Source of the DNA: Fragilariopsis cylindrus CCMP1102
Taxonomy: Eukaryota; Bacillariophyta; Bacillariophyceae; Bacillariales; Bacillariaceae
Length of the DNA: 64,000 nt
NCBI GenBank assembly: GCA_900095095.1
Contig: FMBT01000435.1
Location: forward strand, 1-64,000
Reading direction: 5' to 3'
Shown here: positions 47,796 through 60,606 of the stretch, one piece after another
Layout of the letters: every line of letters starts with the position of its first letter
Position numbering within the stretch: the stretch's first letter is position 1
Notes under the pieces: model-generated
The model's database searches: none
Seen by the model: only the letters and a program-made list of their open reading frames with translations
What the model was told of the DNA's origin: nothing
Position numbers and translations under genes: made by a program

Positions 47796-50700
47796 TTATT
47801 CTATCTTATCAAACCAGTAATAACATATCCAATAAACTTTTTGCTTCGGCGCATAATTGACTTTGAGTTCTATCATTTCAGGAGAAGTTCCGTATTTGTT
47901 TCGTAAATCACTTTCTTTTGCACGACAACGATTGTATCGTTTTTGAGCTAAATCAATAGGTGTTCCAACTAATCTTTAATGCCCCGTTCACTTCTTCTGT
48001 TTGGATCAGCACCCAACCGTAATATTCTATGCAACAAAGATGTAGGAGCCATAAGTTCAATAGCAGCATACAATAATGAAGTACCATTTAAACCTCGAAC
48101 ATTTGATGTTAGCTTTAATGATGACGATACGGATGATGATGACGATTGTTCCTGATTGAACCTTTCAATAGTTTCAATCTGAGTTTTCAATGAATCGATA
48201 ATCTCTTTTTTCTTGATAGTGATATAGTCTCTCTCTGCACTACGATGCTTTGCAACAATACATATCACACCAACTGATTCGACACGTTTTGTTATATCAA
48301 CCGAAAATGAACCATCCTTTGGACATTTCTGTTCAATTTCGTTTAATGTAAATACAAACGATCCAAGCTTATTGGAGGAAAATTATCGTCCAGACTACCC
48401 TCGGCAATGTCAATCACCAGCCGTCGATTATCCAACGTAATATTGTGGTTGTTATTTACTCTACGATGAAATAACTCCTCGTCGTCGTCAATTTTGTCAG
48501 AGTATGATATATAGTCAGACATTTTGCGAACGGGTAGATTACCCAACTCCGAGACCGGAAATTGAGTTCGTACTGATCCACTGATGACATTACTTCTCCC
48601 AGAAACTACACTAGATTCGAATTCCAACTCAAGATGTTTTAACTCAAAGGAGATGACAGTCCAGGATCTCAAAGATAAAGCCTTCTCGATCAAGTGGGTA
48701 CTGTTAATGTATAACTTCAACACTTTCTTTTTAGCCTCAAGATCATTCTCCGTATGAATCGCACTAAACTGAGTGGAAAGTTTGATTTTCTCGATCTCCC
48801 TTCCAACGTAATTATACTGTTCACGTAGAACGGAATCAAATGACGCCTTGTTAAGAGCAGGCCCATTTTCGAGCACATATATTAAATCCCTGCATGACTT
48901 ATTCTGGACAGCATCCAGTAGAGTATCTTTAATAGGTGCCGCATGATGAGTTATACTAGGCATTTGTACTTGATTCTCTGTTTGGGTGGTTGGGTGTTGC
49001 TGGGTGGAGTGTTGCCATCCCCTTGATGATGAGCCCAGCGATTGCTTTGATTCGGATTTCCTTCTATTGTGATAACTCGACCCATTCATGTTCGAATTAG
49101 ATATACTTCTATTCGGACCTGACCTACTTTGATCCATTCTTCGATCCACACCAATACAATTCGCACCTCCGGCCCATCCGTGATAATTATTGCCAGTCCA
49201 GCTCCCCTTAGTGTTCCAATTGCTATCAGATACAGATTTGGATTCTGTATTTGATGATGAAGGATGATTATTTTCTAAAATGACACGCAACATCTGTCTC
49301 TTTTTGCTTGCATGAAGGTAGAAAGATTGAAGATCAGTGTGGCTTGACACCGTCTTGCGACGTTCTGCCACCATTACAGCCATCACTTGCGTTCCGACTT
49401 TAATCCTGACATCCATAGATAATTGGCCATCGGCAAATTTTGAGAAAAGAACGCATTTCGATCGTAAATTCTGCCCATATTCTGTTCTAAAATATCCCCC
49501 GAGAGGTCGTGTTGCATCGAAAGCAACTTCGAACGTTGAATTAACCGTGGGGTCAATGAACGATGGACGGGCCGTGGGATGAATAAACGAGGGGCGTCGT
49601 ATATCATTGTTGCTTACCGAGTGCGGGAATATAACCTGTCCTAGATCGACGTTCTTCGTCACATCAATTGATCCGTGTGAAGTCTTTCTTTCAGGTAAAC
49701 TATTCTGCGACCCTTTCGAAGAAGCCTTGTATGGCGGTCTCTTACTGGAAGAAGCTTGGACACTTCTGTCTCCTTGCTTCGCACCCCTACAAAAAATATC
49801 ATCCCATTCTCCTTCGCATCCACAACCTTCACTACATCGAACACCAAACATGCCATTATACATGCGATGCTTCTGATGTAACGACCACATATCAATCAAT
49901 CTATTGGTCAACTCTGCGTATGTTCCTGTTGGATATTCCTTCTTCAATAGAGGAACAAATCTTGGTACAAAATATTGAAAGATTCCGCAAATTCTTCCTT
50001 CTAACTCTTGTTCCGTCTCGACATTCTTCTTGCCCTTTATCTCTTGCTTTGAAATATAGTCTTTCACTACATTAGCAACCAGTTCGGGTAGTTGTGAGAT
50101 ACAATTACAACTGTCACCACAAGTTTCTCCAAATAATAGTTTGTGCTGCACCCACATGCTGGACAATATAGATCTTTCGTGTATTTCCGTATCTTTGTAG
50201 TCAAGATGGACAAGAGGTCTTAATTTCTTTTCAAATTCACCAAATCGTTGCAAAGGATTTTTTACTCTTGTTTCATTATGACTACTACCACTTTCTTGTT
50301 CATTATCATCGAAGTTGCCTGAATCTACATCTGCTAGAGGAAACTCAGCGTCGTCGTTTGTTGGGGTTACGGCGTGCGATTCGTTATCGTGAAGGTCATC
50401 TACAGAAGATTCACCTTGCACATCCCACCTCCGCTTTTTGACATTGACTGTCGCTACAGATTTCCCTTTCTTATCATCACCTCGATTTTCCTTGCAATCA
50501 TCGGATTGATTTGTCAACAATTCAGAGGGAAGAGGAGGAGGTGATGGTAGTAGTGGTGGTGCATTCAATGTCTGGTAAAAGTTTGGATCGTACGGCTTAC
50601 CATCACGTCTTCGAAGATTTTGTATCAATCGATTTGGTACACGTTCTAAGTTGGCATACCTTGAAAGACAAATAGTCATTATGACCAATTCCTTAGATTT

Positions 50701-52512
50701 ATCTTTCATAGCTTCAGTTACAATTCTTTTCAATTCTGATGCATCCGATATTTTTAGTCCATCAATTGATAGTATAGCACATCCATTTTCACATGCTTCA
50801 TGTCCACCTAAGGCTTGAGCTAACCCTTTGTCCGGTACAACCCGGTTCATCCAAAGTCCACCCGTGGATTGTAGTTGCTGCTGCTGCTGTTGTTCCCCAC
50901 CAACTATAGAAAATTGTGAAAATTTTATACCAATCACATCTTTATGTATATCTAATTCAACGTCAAGTTCCAACGAATAATCGTCATCTAGTATTCTTTT
51001 AAGATTAACAAATGCAATCCGTTTTCGTACATAAGCTTGTGTATGATCTTTCAACATGTCCAAATATTTTTCTCTTCCTTTATCATTATCATCGATGACG
51101 ATACAAGAGACACTGCGAGCTTCCAGTAAATACGAACTACCATGAGGATCATTCGGATCATGATCAGAGATATTCACCATCCAGGTAGAACTATTATTTC
51201 GGATATTAGTAGGTATCTTGTTTGATACAGGTTTGATGACATTGTAGCAAAACTCATCACGGGTAAATAGTAGCTCATTGTCATGGTAACCACCAGAATT
51301 TGTTGGAATATATTTTGGAAGAGTTTGTCGAATACTTTTGAATTTGATTTCATCTACTGTCCCGCTAACCTTCGACGACGATACCAACACTCCATTCGTG
51401 CTAGATCCTTCATGGAGCGCTCTCGTGAAGTGAACCATCGGACTATCATCCCCATCAGGACCTGAACTACTAATAGTTTTTCCTTCAGTATCTTTGGTGT
51501 GACTACAAGCAATAGCCACGCCATCGTTGTTACCGCAAGATTCTGAGGAAGAGGATGCTTTCGTTGTCGTTTTTTCCTGTATTGTAGGATGATGATTTCT
51601 TTTTCGTTTACGAATATTCTTCCATCCTAAATTATTTGATGTTTTATTCTCCGTTGTTTCATTTTCATTTATATTTCCATCCATACGACGAATAGGATAA
51701 GATTTCACAAACTCTAGATCTTCCGCTGCTGTTATGTTTTCTAATAAAGTTTGCATAATATCATTTTCTTCAGATATGGATATTTTTTTATCAAGTAAAT
51801 CCATTATGTATTGTTCCTCCTCCTTTTCTTCGGCACACGTAACTAATTCATCGAGTCGATTCATTACCCAATCTTCCACTAACTGTTGTTGTTCGTCATT
51901 CATCCACCATGGTTGTTCCTTCTTTTTTTCCTTCATTTTAGCATGGACGACTACATCATTGGGATTTCTTGGTCTTGGTCGTCGTCGCAAAATCGTATTA
52001 GTAAATTCATCGTCAGAAGAGTCCAAAACATAATCATCACACTCACCGCTGTCACAAGCAGACGACGATGATTGCTGTTGTTGTTGTTTTATTTCTTTGT
52101 CTTTGTTATTGCTACTGATATTATCTTTTTCTGGATTATTATTCTTTTCTCGTGAAACATCACTCGTCATCGTCATTGTTGGTTCTAGTTTGGTCGATTC
52201 TGGTAATGTAATTAAATTAGTAGTGTTGTGATCACTATCAGGAGTCTTAGCAGAGGAAGCTGCTGCTGCTACTGCTGCTTGTACTAGTATTTGTATTTGA
52301 GCTTCGAATGGTGATGCTTGGGGTACTGGGCCTGCTGAATGTGTTTGTGTTTGTATCTGTATTTGAGCTTCGGGTGGTGCTACAGCTGTAATTCCATCCA
52401 GATTAAATACTGCTCGAGGCCTCGAACCCCCCGGTCTGGGTCGACGTTGTGGCCGTGGTCGTCGAGCATGACGACCACCTTGTGCACCTTGTGGAGGTGG
52501 TATGTCTGCCAT
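47796..52512 (-). CDS. Large PDZ-like and ankyrin-containing protein (two frameshifts)
   Basis: A 1,389-residue ORF (48343-52512) continues after one missing base at ~48356 (T run in the coding strand). It reads DRFVFTLNEIEQKCPKDGSF, VDITKRVESVGVICIVAKHR and an ankyrin-like unit (GTSLLYAAIELMAPTSLLHR, GADPNRRSERG). A second missing base at ~47975 gives LVGTPIDLAQKRYNRCRAKE and a stop at 47796. The N-terminus is Arg/Pro-rich (RHARRPRPQRRPRPGGSRPR). A PDZ-like segment lies around residues ~545-640 (GGLWMNRVVPDKGLAQALGG, GCAILSIDGLKISDASELKR). A Cys-containing block (LLFGETCGDSCNCISQLPEL, GVRCSEGCGCEGEWDD) and another PDZ-like segment (RPLGGYFRTEYG ... VGTQVMAVMVAERRK) follow. Probably a scaffold; I do not recognise an exact family. 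Confidence 0.65.
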
Positions 52513-52947
52513 GATATTTGATTATGGTTTTCGATTGTTATTATTTTATGTGAGCTATAGAAGCGAATAACATCGTCGGTGTTGTGCACACGGGGTAACG
52601 TTACGGTACTGTGTATGTGATTTGAGAATGTTCAGGAGAAATTAAATTTCCTCCACAAGAAACAACGCCACAAGCCGTATTACTTTCACCGTAGTATGGA
52701 GATGTCACGCTAAAAAGAGCCTAAGGTAGTCTTTAAAATGTCAGTCGTGTACATTTGTAGCCTCGCGCAATTTTTTAAATTCATTATTTTTAATAAATCA
52801 TTTTTATCTACTGTAATTCACAAGAACAAGAATGACTCATAAACAAAACAGCAACAAGCAAACAGGAACATCGACGCCAATCGGAAGGATTGAGATAAAG
52901 ACTTACGATATACTAGTAGCATCAATCGTTATTACAGTTTCGTTTCA
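52513..52947. other. Divergent intergenic region
   Basis: 435 bp between two divergent starts, presumably both promoters. No repeats or motifs stand out. Confidence 0.4.
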
Positions 52948-54211: not shown

Positions 54212-57200
54212 TTATTTCGTGGTCGTGATTGTCAATGTTTTAGGTGGATGCTCCTTCTTTTCACTATGATGAGAAGAATGACGGCATTTATTCCAACTTT
54301 TTGAATATTCAAATGAGAACCGGCTGCCATAACCGACCATATGACGAAGTACCTCTCGTATACTGTCTAAGCTGCATGGCTTTGGTAGATACCCAGCCGC
54401 ACCATTGTCAATACAATATTGTCGGAATGAATCCGAAACATGAGCAGTGACAAAAATAACTTTTGGGATGGGGTGTCCACCATCACGTTTGTTGAGCGCA
54501 CGACAAGCTTCAACGCCATCCATTTTTGGCATTTGCATGTCCATCAGGACAAGATCAAAAGGTTGCTTGGCTTCCATCTCGACGGCTTCCAAGCCATTAT
54601 TGGCAATGGTAACCATCGTGACACCACATCGATTCAGAAGTCTCTTCATGACCTTTTGGTTCACAAGATTGTCTTCGGCAATTAATATTCTTAGCCCAGA
54701 AATCAGTTCATCCCCTTCATCGCCAAGAGCTCTCGAACATGCCTTGGCTGGATTTCCTAATAGTTCTTGGCCAAAGTCTCCCAGATACTGGATCAGGACA
54801 GAGGGGAAAACCTCCATTAGAGAGCGCCAATGCTTCTTTGTCTTTTCTATTCCATATTTAGGACCAAATGTTACCAAACACGACCTAGAATTTTCCTTTA
54901 AGAGTTCGAATGATTTTGCATCGTAAAGATCTTCCTGTACTAAACAAATATACGTCATTTCTGGCACTAGCGCCCCTTCCGAACTGATTAGTGTAACGAG
55001 ATCGTCCATATTATGGAAATGAGTACAGTTAACCTTGAACGCAGCAAAGATATTTTGAACCAACGTAGTTTGCGGGTCAGTTTCATCCGCCACAAAAAGT
55101 ATCGACGTCGAACCAAGCCTGTCGGAGAACTCTTTAATGTTAATAGGACGATCAACGAACGGAATTTCCACTTTAAAATCCGTCCAGCTTCCAACATCAC
55201 TGTCTACAGAAATCTTACCATCCATGGCTTCGACAAGCTTTTTTGTGATCGAAAGCCCTAGACCGGTGCCCCCAACTGTGTTAGTTAAACCAGTTTCGGA
55301 CTGACGAAAGGGCTCAAAGATCTTATCAAAGTCCTCCGATCCAATTCCTTTGCCATAATCTTTGACGGAAAGGACCAGCATTTTTTTGTCATCGGCAATA
55401 GTAACATTGAAATCGATTCTACTTTCTTCGTTACTAAACTTGATGGCGTTACCCAGCAAGTTGTATAGAATTTGTTGGACCCGTCGACTATCCGTAGCAA
55501 TGCATTCTGGGAGGAGAGGATCAAACGTAGCAATAATGTTCAAACTTTTGTCAACAGCTATCTGGCTTGTCTTCACTAAATGAATTACTGCACCAAGAGT
55601 TTCCTGAAAATTTACTTCTTTAACAAGAATTTCGACTTTCCCGCTCTCTAATTTCGAATCTATATGTGAGAAGAAAACAAAAATGGTTAGCAACAGCAAG
55701 CGATGGTAAGCTGGTGTTACAAAATACTATTAGGCTGATTCTACATATCGTAGTAATAACTTACAATCGAGAACATCATCTACAATCTGTCGTAGAAGTT
55801 TTCCACTAGATACGATCATTCCCATGCTCTCCTTTTGCATTTCATCAAGTTCCGTATCTTCAATCAAGCTCGACAAGCCGATGATACAATTCAATGGCGT
55901 CCGAATCTCATGAGACATGGATGCAAAGTGTTGAAGTTGCATTGCAGACGAAGACGCAATCTTGTTATTGGCTATCGCTAAATCCGCATTTAATGCCTCA
56001 AGACGAGATGTTCGTTCCTTGACCTTCATCTCGACTTTAAGAGTCATGTCGACGTATTCAGCTGAAGGACGCTCTAATGGGTCACGTGCGAAGCATTCGT
56101 TCATAAGTTTCGCCACCTTTGATGGACAATGTAATGGAACAGGTGGGCGTTTATTAATTTTTGGATTACAAACTTGTTTTACAACATCGCTATACCTTTC
56201 TCCCTCATATGGTGGCCGACCAGAATAAATTTCATAAATAACGATACCAAGCGCATAAATATCTGATTCGGGGCTATTCACACAGTTCCCCTGTAGTAAC
56301 TCTGGGCTCATCCAAAACGGTGTACCAACAGCTCCAATATGTGTTTTGCCGCCTGTGATACAAAACCAGATCAATATACAAGTTGGGTGAGCCAATTAGT
56401 GAGAAATATGAAGAATGCTGTGCTGTGCTGTGATGTGTTGTGCGAGACAAAATGAAACAAGAGAGCGACTAAGACTTACTCAAACCAAAATCAGTGACCT
56501 TAGCACAAAGATTTTCATCAACTAATACATTCTGACTCTTCAAATCGCCGTGTATAACTGGTGGATTGGCACTATGCAGGAATCGTAATCCTTGTGCGAC
56601 GTCTTTGAGTATATCTAAGATCTGTTCTGGTTTTAATACAATCGAATCATCTTGTAATACATCAAACAAACTTCCGTATCGCATGTATTCCATAATTAGC
56701 ATCGGATCATCTTTCCGTGACGGCATGACCGCTCCCATAACGGTTGTAATACAAGGATGTCGAAGGCGTGCCAACTGACGGATCTCTGCTACAAACTCCG
56801 ACTTTAGATATAATTGAGTGTTATCGTCTCCTTTGTTGTCAAAGCAAAATCCTAACACACCACGTTTTTGATTGTATTGGCCACTCATCATTACTTTGGA
56901 TTGCATCATGCTGTTCATGATTGTATTTGGAGCACGGCTTTTCATACCACGATTCATCGGACCAGTTATTGCATTACCTAGAGAGAGAGAGAGAGATGAA
57001 TGTGAGTGAATGTCGTCGGTTAAAACTTGAATATGCAAATAATGAATTGTGTTACAATGATTATATACTCACCGTTTTCAACATCTTCGAGGATGCTACC
57101 ACCACCACCCCACGAATCATTAGATGCGGACCATTTACTACTAGATTTACGAGGATCAAACAATGAATCACGTTCAGTTCCAGGAGGGATCACACGCTTG

Positions 57201-58999
57201 ACAGCAACTTGTGTACCTCTATATTCTGCTAATAGAACCAGTCCGAAGGTACCCTGACCGATAATCGTAGCAGATCCATCACCGAAGTCTAATTCATCAA
57301 TTTTAACAATCCATACCGAATCGGATTGTTTACGTTTATATTCAACGTAGTAATGAACAATGATGCCGACCAAAAGAAGTATTGGTAGAATAATACTCGG
57401 TATAAAGATGTACAATTGAACGCATGAATCACCGATCGGTACTGAATCAATACATTGGAGTTCATTGGGGATTTCACATGGTCGGCATAAACATTGGAAT
57501 CCTTCACCACAATCCAATCCAATAACAGCACATGCAGTGTCAACTACCTCTTTCGATTTAAGGAAGGACCCCTCCGGACATGAAATTGCATCATACAATT
57601 CAGCCGAACGGATACATCTCCATGTTAATGATTCTGGGTCCTTCTTGATAAAACCAACAGCTTCTTGCATACTACGTAATTGCATATATGAAAGTGACGT
57701 TGTCCATTCAGCGTATTTGCCATTCGTTTGTGCCTTCAGAGCCTTCACAGCAATATCATGTGTAACACCACAGGGAATTGGTCCAGATGTATATAATTCT
57801 GATAGTGGTATTTGATTACAAGCAACTGTTGTTGAATTGATATTAGATTGATAACATTGATCAACAGATATACCGATATCAGCATACGCTGCAACATTCA
57901 GCATAGCCTGTTGTACTTCTCTTGATACATCCTGACTAACATGCGTCAATGCTGCTATATTCCATTCAGCATATAATTCTGTTGAACTTTGAAATGGGAA
58001 TGGCACACCATTAATTTCTAAACCTGGTTGTGGATTAATAATCTTAAATTTATCTAAATCAACAGGATTACCATCAGCATCCTTACTTCGTTCAAGTTGA
58101 TCAGTTCTAATAAAGCCCACATCAAAATCACCTGCCAATAATCCTTTCACAACTAATCCTTGATTACTTGTAAATACAAGTTGCTTTGGATCATCTAAAT
58201 AATTCATACCGTTGTCAATCATTGCCTTAAATTGCATCTGACCTGATCCTAATCCAGAAATAGATGCAGCAGCAACCCTTTGATCTTTTAAATCTAATAC
58301 AGAATTAATATCATCTCGATTAGACAATGTTGCAATCACACCACCAAATTTTTCTAAATCATATATCTGACCAGATACTTTCCTTCGTGATACCTGACTT
58401 GCTAATGAATATGATTTATATTCACTTTCAATACAGGAATATGCGGATGGATTCACATAGATGAAATCAACTTTTCGTGATTCGGCATCGGAAAATAATG
58501 TTAAAAAATTTAATGGCTTTAATTCAAATTCAATGGGTGGATCAAATTTTTGTCCAGCAGTGGCTGTTAAATATTCATTAAATGTGGCATTAAATTCAGC
58601 ATAGGCTGCATCAAAGCCACGTATCGCTAACACACCCACTGTATACTTTGGTTTGATCGCAATCGCACCTCCCCCGCCCACTGCCTCGTCTGGATCCCAA
58701 TTGGTTGGTATATGACATACTTTATTATTATTATTATCGTCTTCGAGGAGGTTCATGACCTCATTATCATTCACAGTTACTGTTACAGTTTCTGTCTCAT
58801 TCACACCAGAATCCTCCTGTAAGTAACGGTGAGATTGTTCCGCCCAGTTGCTGTTGTTGTTTTGATAGTAGTTATTTGTTTTAGCCTTTATAGAAGACGT
58901 TACTACGCCTGCTACTAAAGGTGGTGAAGATAAGCATAACGTCACCACAACAACGAAAGCTAACGAATACAAAAGTAAAAAAGTTTCACCACCGAACAT
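54212..58999 (-). CDS. Receptor with PhnD-like ectodomain, Ser/Thr kinase, histidine kinase and receiver
   Basis: Four exons (57073-58999, 56480-56977, 55765-56352, 54212-55659); introns 56978-57072, 56353-56479, 55660-55764, all GT-AG; 1,486 residues, no frameshift. A signal sequence (~5-31) precedes a periplasmic-binding-protein domain like PhnD phosphate/phosphonate binders (~118-375: VGVLAIRGFDAAYAEFNATF, VDFIYVNPSAYSCI, GSGQMQFKAMIDNG, GDFDVGFIRTDQLE). A Cys-rich stretch (~462-526) and a TM (529-551) follow. The kinase has GQGTFGLV (581-588), VAVK (K601), HGDLKSQNVLVD, DFGLS and GTPFWMSPE. The linker KERTSRLEALNADLAIANNK leads to the H-box SHEIRTPLNC (His ~955), N-box LLGNAIKFS (~1075), DYGKGIG, GGTGLGLS, and a receiver with EDN, VLMDMQMPKMDG (Asp ~1378) and Lys ~1431. 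All core catalytic residues are present. It should sense an extracellular ligand and signal through two kinase types. Confidence 0.93.
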
Positions 59000-59850
59000 A
59001 ATTATTCTTGTGCGTGACGTGATTGTTGTGTTGTGTTTGTTTTGTGATATGAAACTAACTGTTGGGCGTATTCCACCTTATTCTTGCTACTCGTTTGGGT
59101 ATTCGTCTCGTTCCTTTTATTAGTTCGTCTTCCCCTTCTCCTTTTGAATTCTGATTCAGTCGATCGTATAGTAATACTAATTGTAGATTGTTGTGGGTAC
59201 ACAGATGATATTTCTCAGTCCTAATCTCTGTTTTCGCTTTGTTCTCTTCGTGTTCTAGTAAGGATGTCACCGTGTTTTGTTCGCGACATAATAAAATAAT
59301 ACATACATTTCGTTTAAAAATAACAAAAAAAATCTGCTTTTGTTATTAGCGGAAAAAGAATACAGACGTTTTTCCGCGGAGTATATAACCCCGTCACGTT
59401 AGCGAACCATCCAATTATTTTATGTACAGTACTGTATTATTAAGTAACTTCAACATCCATCCAATTAATTTATGTATTATTAAGTAACTTCAACGGGAAG
59501 TGTGTCACTGACTCATAAAGTACGAATGAGGACAGTGCTCTTAATTAATTATGTTCTACGTATGAGTATATACACCGTAACATACTCCTAACACGCCCCG
59601 AATAAACCCTTATTTCAGTCGTGGACATCATCTTATCATCACGTACGTCGGCTACCATGATACTGTAAAAGGTACCACCATAGCGGGCATCAAACAACAA
59701 TCGTCAATCTTCCTACAAAAATATATACAGGATTGCTGATCGGACGAAGTTTCTTCACAGAAGGAGGTTCGGGTTATTAAGGTGTGTCGTGTGGTGAAAG
59801 CTCTCCTGTTTTTTTTCTCATCAATCGATTGACGCGCCCAGTTCGCGATC
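59000..59850. promoter_or_regulatory. Divergent promoter region with tandem repeat R6
   Basis: 851 bp between the receptor start (-) and the FKBP start (+). It contains two copies of a ~40-bp unit (59407-59454 and 59457-59494: CCATCCAATTA...TATTATTAAGTAACTTCAAC). No gene recognised; promoter function is inferred from arrangement. Confidence 0.45.
59407..59494 (+). repeat. Tandem repeat R6
   Basis: Two copies of CCATCCAATTA(T/A)TTTATGT, then TATTATTAAGTAACTTCAAC. The first copy carries an extra ~10 bp (ACAGTACTG). Confidence 0.85.
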
Positions 59851-60606
59851 ATGAAGGTGACAAGCATCCTATTCGTTGGTGCTGCAGCCATCACGGCAGT
59901 GGCGGCGGAGCTCCAGATCAATATCTACGAGGGTCCAAGGGAGTGCGACGAGTCCAATAAAGTCAAGGTGGGTGATAAGGTTGGGATACACTACACCGGG
60001 GCGATCGATGAATCCTCAAAGAATGGAATACTCGGACAGCAATTCGATTCCTCCCGTGACCGCAATATTATTCTTGATGTAACGGTTGGTTTTGGTGATT
60101 TAATTGATGGATGGGACATTGGTCTCATTGGGATCTGCAAGGGTGCAAAAGCAATCCTCGTTATTCCTCCCGAGATGGGGTACGGGTCCAGTGGCGTCGG
60201 CGACGGCGATCTCATCCCTGGCGGCGCGACGCTCAAATTCGACGTGGAGGTTGTCTCTGTCACTGAGCCTCCGCCACAGCTGAACCTCTTTAATGAACTT
60301 GACATTGACCAGGATGACGTACTCACGCCTGCAGAGATTCATGTGCACTTCCGAAAGGAGAATCCGAATGCCGAAATGCCACCAGATCTAATGGAAAAGG
60401 AGGACAAGAACAAGGATGGCGTCGTATCTAGGGAAGAGTTTGGTGGGCCGCGCATGCCATGGGATATATGCTTAGAGATGCTCCATGGGAATTCAAAATC
60501 AACTGAAATAACTGTCCTTAAACTTACGGTACTTTGGCTGTGTCAGCGACCTCGTAACCTCGAACTCGAGGGGTACAATGATGACAAGGGCAATGAAGAA
60601 CTCTGA
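59851..60606 (+). CDS. Secretory FKBP-type peptidyl-prolyl isomerase with EF-hands
   Basis: A 251-residue ORF. A signal peptide (MKVTSILFVGAAAITAVAA) is followed by an FKBP domain (~38-137): KVGDKVGIHYTGAI, QFDSSRDRNIILDVTVGFGD, LIDGWDIGLIGICKGAKAIL, PPEMGYGSSGVGDGDLIPGG and TLKFDVEVVSV. Two EF-hand loops follow, DIDQDDVLTPAE and DKNKDGVVSREE, giving the FKBP14/FKBP7-like ER layout. It should speed proline isomerisation during folding in the ER and bind Ca2+. The codon usage is more GC-rich than its neighbours. The tail after GGPRMPWDICLEML (STEITVLKLTVLWLCQRPRN) has no family match, so an unrecognised intron or changed reading frame near 60490 is possible. It ends GNEEL, not a clear HDEL. 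Confidence 0.85.
   Translation: MKVTSILFVGAAAITAVAAELQINIYEGPRECDESNKVKVGDKVGIHYTGAIDESSKNGILGQQFDSSRDRNIILDVTVGFGDLIDGWDIGLIGICKGAKAILVIPPEMGYGSSGVGDGDLIPGGATLKFDVEVVSVTEPPPQLNLFNELDIDQDDVLTPAEIHVHFRKENPNAEMPPDLMEKEDKNKDGVVSREEFGGPRMPWDICLEMLHGNSKSTEITVLKLTVLWLCQRPRNLELEGYNDDKGNEEL

Follow-up and report, generated by a model that had tools for sequence, protein, structure and literature searches.

Receptor guanylyl cyclases carry a periplasmic-binding-protein-like ectodomain, a helix, a kinase-type domain, a coil and a dimeric catalytic output, and their kinase-homology domain is a pseudokinase that acts as a structural relay. Here, we analyzed a gene of the diatom Fragilariopsis cylindrus CCMP1102, located at positions 54212-58999 of contig FMBT01000435.1 (the first 64,000 nucleotides of this contig are referred to as the window), whose predicted product follows the same order and has a histidine kinase as its output. 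Receptor guanylyl cyclases are the nearest working plan; they use another type of periplasmic binding protein, a pseudokinase and a cyclase, whereas the diatom kinase domain looks active and no cyclase domain was matched in the diatom receptor at E ≤ 1 in Pfam. The diatom protein is probably best explained as a single-pass membrane receptor that arose by domain shuffling and that carries, after a flytrap, a stalk and a membrane helix, a TKL-like kinase joined by a coil to a hybrid histidine kinase.

In UniProtKB, 838 sensor kinases with PhnD-like domains have been counted (PMC5408782). Bacterial sensor kinases of the TtrS/ThsS type (NF040750; PMC5408782, PMC11293645) combine a PF12974 sensor with HisKA and HATPase domains, as does the diatom protein, and the PF12974 ectodomain of the latter is nearest to histidine-kinase sensor domains. 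The diatom protein differs from this type in the TKL kinase between membrane helix and HisKA, in its fused receiver, in its pocket residues and in a histidine kinase core that groups with diatom histidine kinases; it does not have a TtrS-like core that follows the sensor with no catalytic domain before HisKA. AioX, ArrX, PtxB and PhnD are separate periplasmic proteins, unlike the fused diatom ectodomain (PMC5908839, PMC5700983). Among eukaryotes, Candida albicans CHK1 (PMC9069115) and the Physarum histidine kinases that carry protein kinase domains (PMC4758236) likewise hold a eukaryotic protein kinase and a histidine kinase in one polypeptide. CHK1 carries AAA and GAF domains, neither of which was matched in the diatom receptor at E ≤ 1 in Pfam, while an extracellular binding-protein domain, present in the diatom receptor, is not mentioned for CHK1 or the Physarum kinases in the available parts of those reports. 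Rice CHARK (PMC7814049) also places a histidine-kinase-type sensor on a Ser/Thr receptor kinase; unlike in the diatom protein, this sensor is a CHASE domain and the Ser/Thr kinase stands in place of the histidine kinase. What is new in the diatom receptor is how known parts are combined; each pairwise fusion has a precedent, and searches aimed at the full combination in an open-licence library found no description of it.

Gene model and domain layout

The gene model comprises the following features, given in window coordinates or in residues of the product.

58999-54212, minus strand: receptor gene, four exons and three GT..AG introns, 1,486-residue product
57073..58999, minus strand: exon 1, one open frame with the signal-like segment, PhnD-fold ectodomain, Cys-rich stalk, membrane helix and start of the kinase N-lobe
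Residues ~113-413, exon 1: PhnD-fold ectodomain, from Pfam and structure
Residues ~410-526, exon 1: Cys-rich stalk
56978..57072, minus strand: intron 1, 95 bases, GTGAGT..CTCTAG, interrupting the kinase N-lobe insertion
56480..56977, minus strand: exon 2, remainder of the N-lobe insertion, alpha-C Glu707, HGDLKSQN (Asp787) and DFG (Asp805)
56353..56479, minus strand: intron 2, 127 bases, GTAAGT..TCACAG, splitting the Ser codon of DFGLS
55765..56352, minus strand: exon 3, kinase C-lobe (to ~909), coil (~913-945) and most of HisKA, including the phospho-acceptor His956
55660..55764, minus strand: intron 3, 105 bases, GTAAGT..ATATAG, interrupting HisKA
54212..55659, minus strand: exon 4, end of HisKA, HATPase_c 1061-1172, stretch 1181-1325, receiver 1329-1442 (Asp1378) and tail

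An earlier reading of the window, made from the letters alone (the sequence-only reading), had proposed these coordinates, the three introns and the product length, all of which the gene model reproduces exactly. A Pfam domain search of the spliced 1,486-residue protein returned Phosphonate-bd (PF12974) at residues 139-370 (E value of 5.4e-17), PK_Tyr_Ser-Thr at 700-909 (4.9e-47), HisKA at 947-1011 (3e-17), HATPase_c at 1061-1172 (7.5e-26) and Response_reg at 1329-1442 (9.2e-26), which are the matches that had been expected, in the expected order. Hydropathy analysis gave two hydrophobic regions, a signal-like peak at residues 6-24 and a membrane peak at residues 530-548, in keeping with the proposed secreted ectodomain and single transmembrane helix. 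The host, which had been taken for an alga, is a diatom, and its assembly contains 27 silicon-transporter matches. The proposed four-part layout needed correction, as it had left out the Cys-rich stalk and the stretch at 1181-1325. The stalk had no Pfam match at E ≤ 5 (residues 400-530). The stretch at 1181-1325 aligns to the first receiver of a Phaeobacter hybrid kinase, which suggests a possible degenerate receiver; this stays a suggestion because residues 1170-1350 gave no Pfam match at E ≤ 5.

If two or more adjacent genes had been joined wrongly, the combination of domains would be an artefact of the gene model. However, neighboring domains sit in common open frames: a frame of 685 residues holds the periplasmic-binding-protein domain, the membrane helix and the start of the kinase N-lobe, one of 221 residues holds the kinase C-lobe and most of HisKA, and one of 504 residues holds the HATPase and receiver domains. 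Two of the introns lie within the kinase and one within HisKA; therefore, every interdomain boundary is spanned by an exon.

The receptor protein matched three places in the assembly. Contig C280 is 99.98% identical to the gene region across 9.9 kb and was read as a redundant contig, while contig C385 is ~97% identical over the gene and was read as the other haplotype; several gene copies were accordingly rejected in favor of one locus. The C385 allele keeps the frame and encodes 1,489 residues, and its three introns are all GT..AG with lengths of 147, 152 and 105 bases, so that the exon frame is constant although intron lengths differ. Across 1,486 codons, the alleles show 46 silent differences, 24 amino-acid differences and 3 codon gaps (dN, 0.0075; dS, 0.0497; dN/dS, ~0.15). 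The first 115 residues hold 11 of the 24 replacements, and the span from the periplasmic-binding-protein domain to the receiver holds 12 replacement versus 40 silent differences. The kept frame, the changed intron lengths and the low dN relative to dS together form the pattern of a single coding gene that evolves under purifying selection. The common open frames and the allele comparison make wrongly joined genes very improbable, and the fusion of the domains in one protein, as the sequence-only reading had claimed from a four-part polypeptide, looks real on the gene model, the Pfam matches and the alleles. Outside the receptor locus, no member of the 22 HisKA matches lay within 100 kb of any of the 94 matches to the receptor's kinase on one contig, as judged by eye, a comparison that a fusion with a dissimilar kinase would escape.

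Ectodomain relatives and the ligand

The ectodomain is predicted to adopt the two-lobe PhnD/PtxB-type fold of periplasmic binding proteins, in agreement with the PhnD-like substrate-binding fold that had been proposed for it. In profile and fold comparisons, phosphite-binding PtxB and PhnD ranked among its best matches; the profile used against the PDB consisted of 55 bacterial rows plus the diatom row and describes the family more than the diatom protein. When exon-1 residues 1-525 were used alone in phmmer, nothing was found in the PDB at E ≤ 1.

Relatives were sought by tblastn of residues 110-400 against 72,556 plasmids, and 60 records matched. Most were annotated as sensor histidine kinase or TtrS (48 of 60), four as PhnD/SsuA/transferrin-family protein, and eight had no annotation under the match; the PhnD/SsuA/transferrin-family match in Ideonella spans 1.8 kb and precedes a response regulator gene. 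With the 525-residue exon-1 part as the query, NCBIfam returned TtrS (NF040750) with an E value of 4.7e-16 and 58.4 bits, against a curated cut-off of 750, and a weak adenosine-deaminase match (0.0057) that was taken as chance. A first scan of genome contigs using the single diatom protein found no relative, and none was found in three scans of viral contigs. An alignment-guided scan of genomes with one peptide pattern gave 230 relatives. The best 80 of them were retained, and the following shares refer to that sample: PF12974 was present in 80/80, HATPase_c in 30, GGDEF in 28, HisKA in 25 and a receiver in 16 (the Pfam tallies of these loci show 25 of 31 and 25 of 30 families). Frames were shorter than 370 residues in 14 of the 80, and a motif search found a Ser/Thr kinase motif in none. 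By these matches, the ectodomain is a flytrap domain of the kind used by bacteria as input for histidine kinases and cyclic-di-GMP enzymes. Identity to the relatives is 22-36%, and a quick tree built from 90 rows placed the diatom sequence among the bacterial relatives, on a long branch and with no supported sister. Within the plasmids and the one pattern-scanned genome sample that were compared, the nearest sequence relatives thus appear to be TtrS-kind sensor domains, with a weakly supported placement inside the family.

To compare the binding pocket, we turned to the described oxyanion sites. Trichodesmium PtxB holds phosphite via Y55, Y100, S130, T131, S132 and H160, and the Pseudomonas PtxB site includes S124, T125, S126, H155 and Y94 (PMC5700983); a Ser, Ser, His, Tyr, Tyr set is common to AioX and PhnD (PMC5908839). 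The sites were located on the Pseudomonas PtxB sequence, with the sixth, Y49 (the counterpart of Y55), matched by position. None of the six phosphite contacts is kept in the diatom ectodomain, which has F165, F218, G249, L250, G251 and Q280 at these positions in both alignment modes. Nothing remains in the diatom ectodomain of the STS-H oxyanion site used by PtxB and its two tyrosines (Y, Y, S, T, S, H). Among 51 bacterial relatives (the structure alignment took 51 of the 80 genome loci), the first Ser is present in 46 and the His in 45, the second Ser is replaced by Gly in all 51, and Phe occupies the two Tyr positions in most of them (37 and 48, respectively). Two Cys are common to six plasmid sensors, and the diatom has Asp and Phe at those positions.

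The sequence-only reading had taken the protein for a direct phosphate or phosphonate nutrient receptor, in which the flytrap would bind a phosphorus oxyanion (phosphate, phosphonate or phosphite) and signal phosphorus status to the phosphorelay. The Pfam family is indeed named Phosphonate-bd, and phosphite-binding PtxB and PhnD are among the top profile and fold matches. However, all six phosphite-contact positions differ, the nearest sequence relatives found are TtrS-kind sensors, and the fold matches listed include entries that bind arsenate, arsenite, hypophosphite and ATP. A phosphonate or phosphate ligand by family name was rejected on the pocket residues; beyond fold and family name, phosphate, phosphonate and phosphite have no positive evidence in the sequence, and we regard the nutrient-receptor claim as improbable.

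Alternatively, the ligand class of TtrS/ThsS could have been retained, making the protein a sensor of tetrathionate, thiosulphate or a related sulphur oxyanion or organosulphur compound. In line with this, TtrS-type sensors are its closest characterized relatives, PhnD-like domains occur in tetrathionate and thiosulphate sensors (PMC5408782), and many of the best 80 of 230 genome loci are titled as sulphur-cycle bacteria, as judged by eye. In contrast, the low identity given above, the loss of the Ser and His found in 46 and 45 of the 51 bacterial relatives and the replacement of the two Cys of the plasmid sensors argue against a sulphur ligand, and most of the relatives themselves have no assigned ligand; a sulphur sensor is unlikely, if slightly less so than a nutrient receptor. 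Kinship with TtrS does not identify the ligand because the diatom protein lacks the Ser and His of most bacterial relatives, and neither does the fold, given the variety of compounds bound by the matched entries. The ligand class, whether phosphonate/phosphate or tetrathionate, cannot be read off the pocket because its residues differ from both PtxB and the bacterial relatives.

The two kinase domains and their origin

The kinase N-lobe contains GQGTFG at 581 and VAVK at 598, and the catalytic Lys601, Glu707, Asp787 and Asp805 are all present. Of the complete TKL-like kinase that had been proposed, the catalytic residues stand, while the HRD motif reads HGD and ~100 residues separate Lys601 from the alpha-C helix as an N-lobe insertion. 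The best matches of the domain were CTR1 (1.8e-35), followed by Roco4, a reconstructed Src-Abl ancestor and TAK1; going by these best matches alone, it looks like a TKL-like protein kinase. The nearest kinase match in the same genome outside the locus (C60/C314) is 41% identical over 145 residues and is of the CTR1/MLK kind by eye. The domain could be a structural relay, that is, a pseudo- or scaffold kinase as in the receptor guanylyl cyclases, with the phosphorelay as the sole output. Its placement between membrane helix and coil, the HGD in place of HRD and the long N-lobe insertion would fit such a role. However, the Gly-rich loop and the four catalytic residues are present, and the C-lobe shows 0 replacement versus 5 silent differences in 215 codons between the alleles. 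We consider a purely structural role doubtful, though a good deal less so than either ligand assignment above.

The C-terminal half has the features of a hybrid histidine kinase, namely, His956, NLLGNAIKF at 1071, VKDYGKGIG at 1103, GGTGLGLS at 1134 and the receiver Asp1378, as had been read from the letters. One possible history is that a whole bacterial PhnD-sensor histidine kinase was acquired, with the TKL kinase inserted later between membrane helix and HisKA. Bacterial proteins with PhnD-like, HisKA and HATPase domains exist, sometimes with a receiver, and the core scores 157 bits with the best of them (L080). However, its scores with two further histidine kinases from the diatom are higher, at 211 and 205 bits, compared with 170 with Phaeobacter and 56 with an Azospirillum PhnD-kinase, and the TtrS locus L051 gave no match to the core at E ≤ 1e-3.

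A tree was built from which rows with high-scoring pairs shorter than 180 residues were dropped; three other diatom histidine kinase loci were included, and the TtrS-type loci L049-L051 were left out. The receptor core and two of the diatom kinases formed a 100/100 clade, and the third diatom kinase (C184) was placed elsewhere. The next supported set (96/87) has 18 rows, comprising three diatom rows, 10 labelled as PhnD-kinases and 5 others, and is the smallest supported set around the three diatom rows, a point in favor of whole acquisition; in the tree as a whole, 4 of the 26 rows with this label (L068, L072, L109 and L122) stand for kinases encoded elsewhere than in the PhnD frame of the respective locus. 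The frames read for the two clade-mate diatom kinases showed no PhnD-like domain; one of these kinases has an HNOBA match upstream, and a coil of type RT..L..N/AN before HisKA is common to the receptor and both clade mates, by eye. On the strength of the tree, whole acquisition followed by TKL insertion was set aside as the less likely history, and we rate it about as improbable as the phosphorus ligand; a bacterial PhnD-kinase may be the remote source of the whole diatom histidine kinase group.

Two histidine kinases of the same diatom were recorded. One, at L026:1-3174 (contig C80), shows upstream of its HisKA a match to HNOBA (haem-NO-binding associated), a domain that occurs in guanylyl cyclases. 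The other, at L047:4062-8945 on the minus strand of contig C265, is a 1,628-residue hybrid histidine kinase with two receivers, a long low-complexity N terminus and, before the coil, a block with no assigned domain.

In the plasmid search with the histidine kinase core, 1,972 records matched, with Phaeobacter at the top of the 20 rows listed (154 bits). This match (L166:933-4057, on a Phaeobacter inhibens plasmid) directly follows a PhnD-like binding-protein gene. Co-inheritance of this pair was dropped, and the adjacency is not used as evidence because BLAST gave no match between the binding protein and the diatom protein at E ≤ 10.

Proposed signalling model and surrounding loci

For a single-pass receptor of this layout, ligand binding would close the flytrap and thereby change the receptor dimer. 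The signal would travel through the TKL domain and the coil, HisKA would toggle between kinase and phosphatase, and phosphate would move from His956 to Asp1378, after which a separate HPt or response regulator would receive it. Because the kinase domain looks active, the receptor could plausibly have two outputs, protein phosphorylation and phosphorelay. More tentatively, a bacterial-type flytrap, repurposed for a new non-phosphonate ligand, may drive an active TKL kinase, which would also act as a gate, and the His-Asp phosphorelay at once; we hold this fuller scheme to be possible, and somewhat ahead of a purely structural kinase. If true, it would be a single-molecule link of plant/animal-style kinase signalling and bacterial phosphorelay, and the receptor would possibly sense compounds from bacteria or dissolved organic matter. 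In any case, the locus clearly exemplifies the recombination of a sensor domain of bacterial type with a eukaryotic kinase. To our knowledge, few diatom receptors have known ligands, and an ectodomain with a confidently predicted fold is a candidate for expression and ligand screening. Mutants could show whether a eukaryotic kinase between membrane helix and histidine kinase relays the signal.

Two further coding features were recorded in the window. The divergent neighbor upstream of the receptor gene (59833-60606, plus strand) encodes an FKBP-type peptidyl-prolyl isomerase with weak EF-hand matches, and at 48343-52521 on the minus strand lies a 1,392-residue open frame with no Pfam match above the cut-off and a PDZ-like stretch by eye. 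Two other diatom PF12974 proteins were placed outside the bacterial relatives in the ectodomain tree. Elsewhere in the diatom, L043:4091-4747 (contig C356) is a short PhnD-like frame of 219 residues (PF12974, 5.6e-13), with an 825-residue frame of transposase-type look, by eye, ~0.5 kb downstream, and C470:23692-24069 is a PhnD-like match containing a stop codon. Finally, frames of 932 and 933 residues with a PhnD-like domain were found at L044:3735-6530 (contig C608) and L045:3700-6498 (contig C29). In the L044 frame, a flavin-binding monooxygenase match (404-646; 3.1e-35) is fused C-terminal to the PhnD-like domain (73-218; 1.9e-10); the L045 copy reads like it and is probably the other haplotype.

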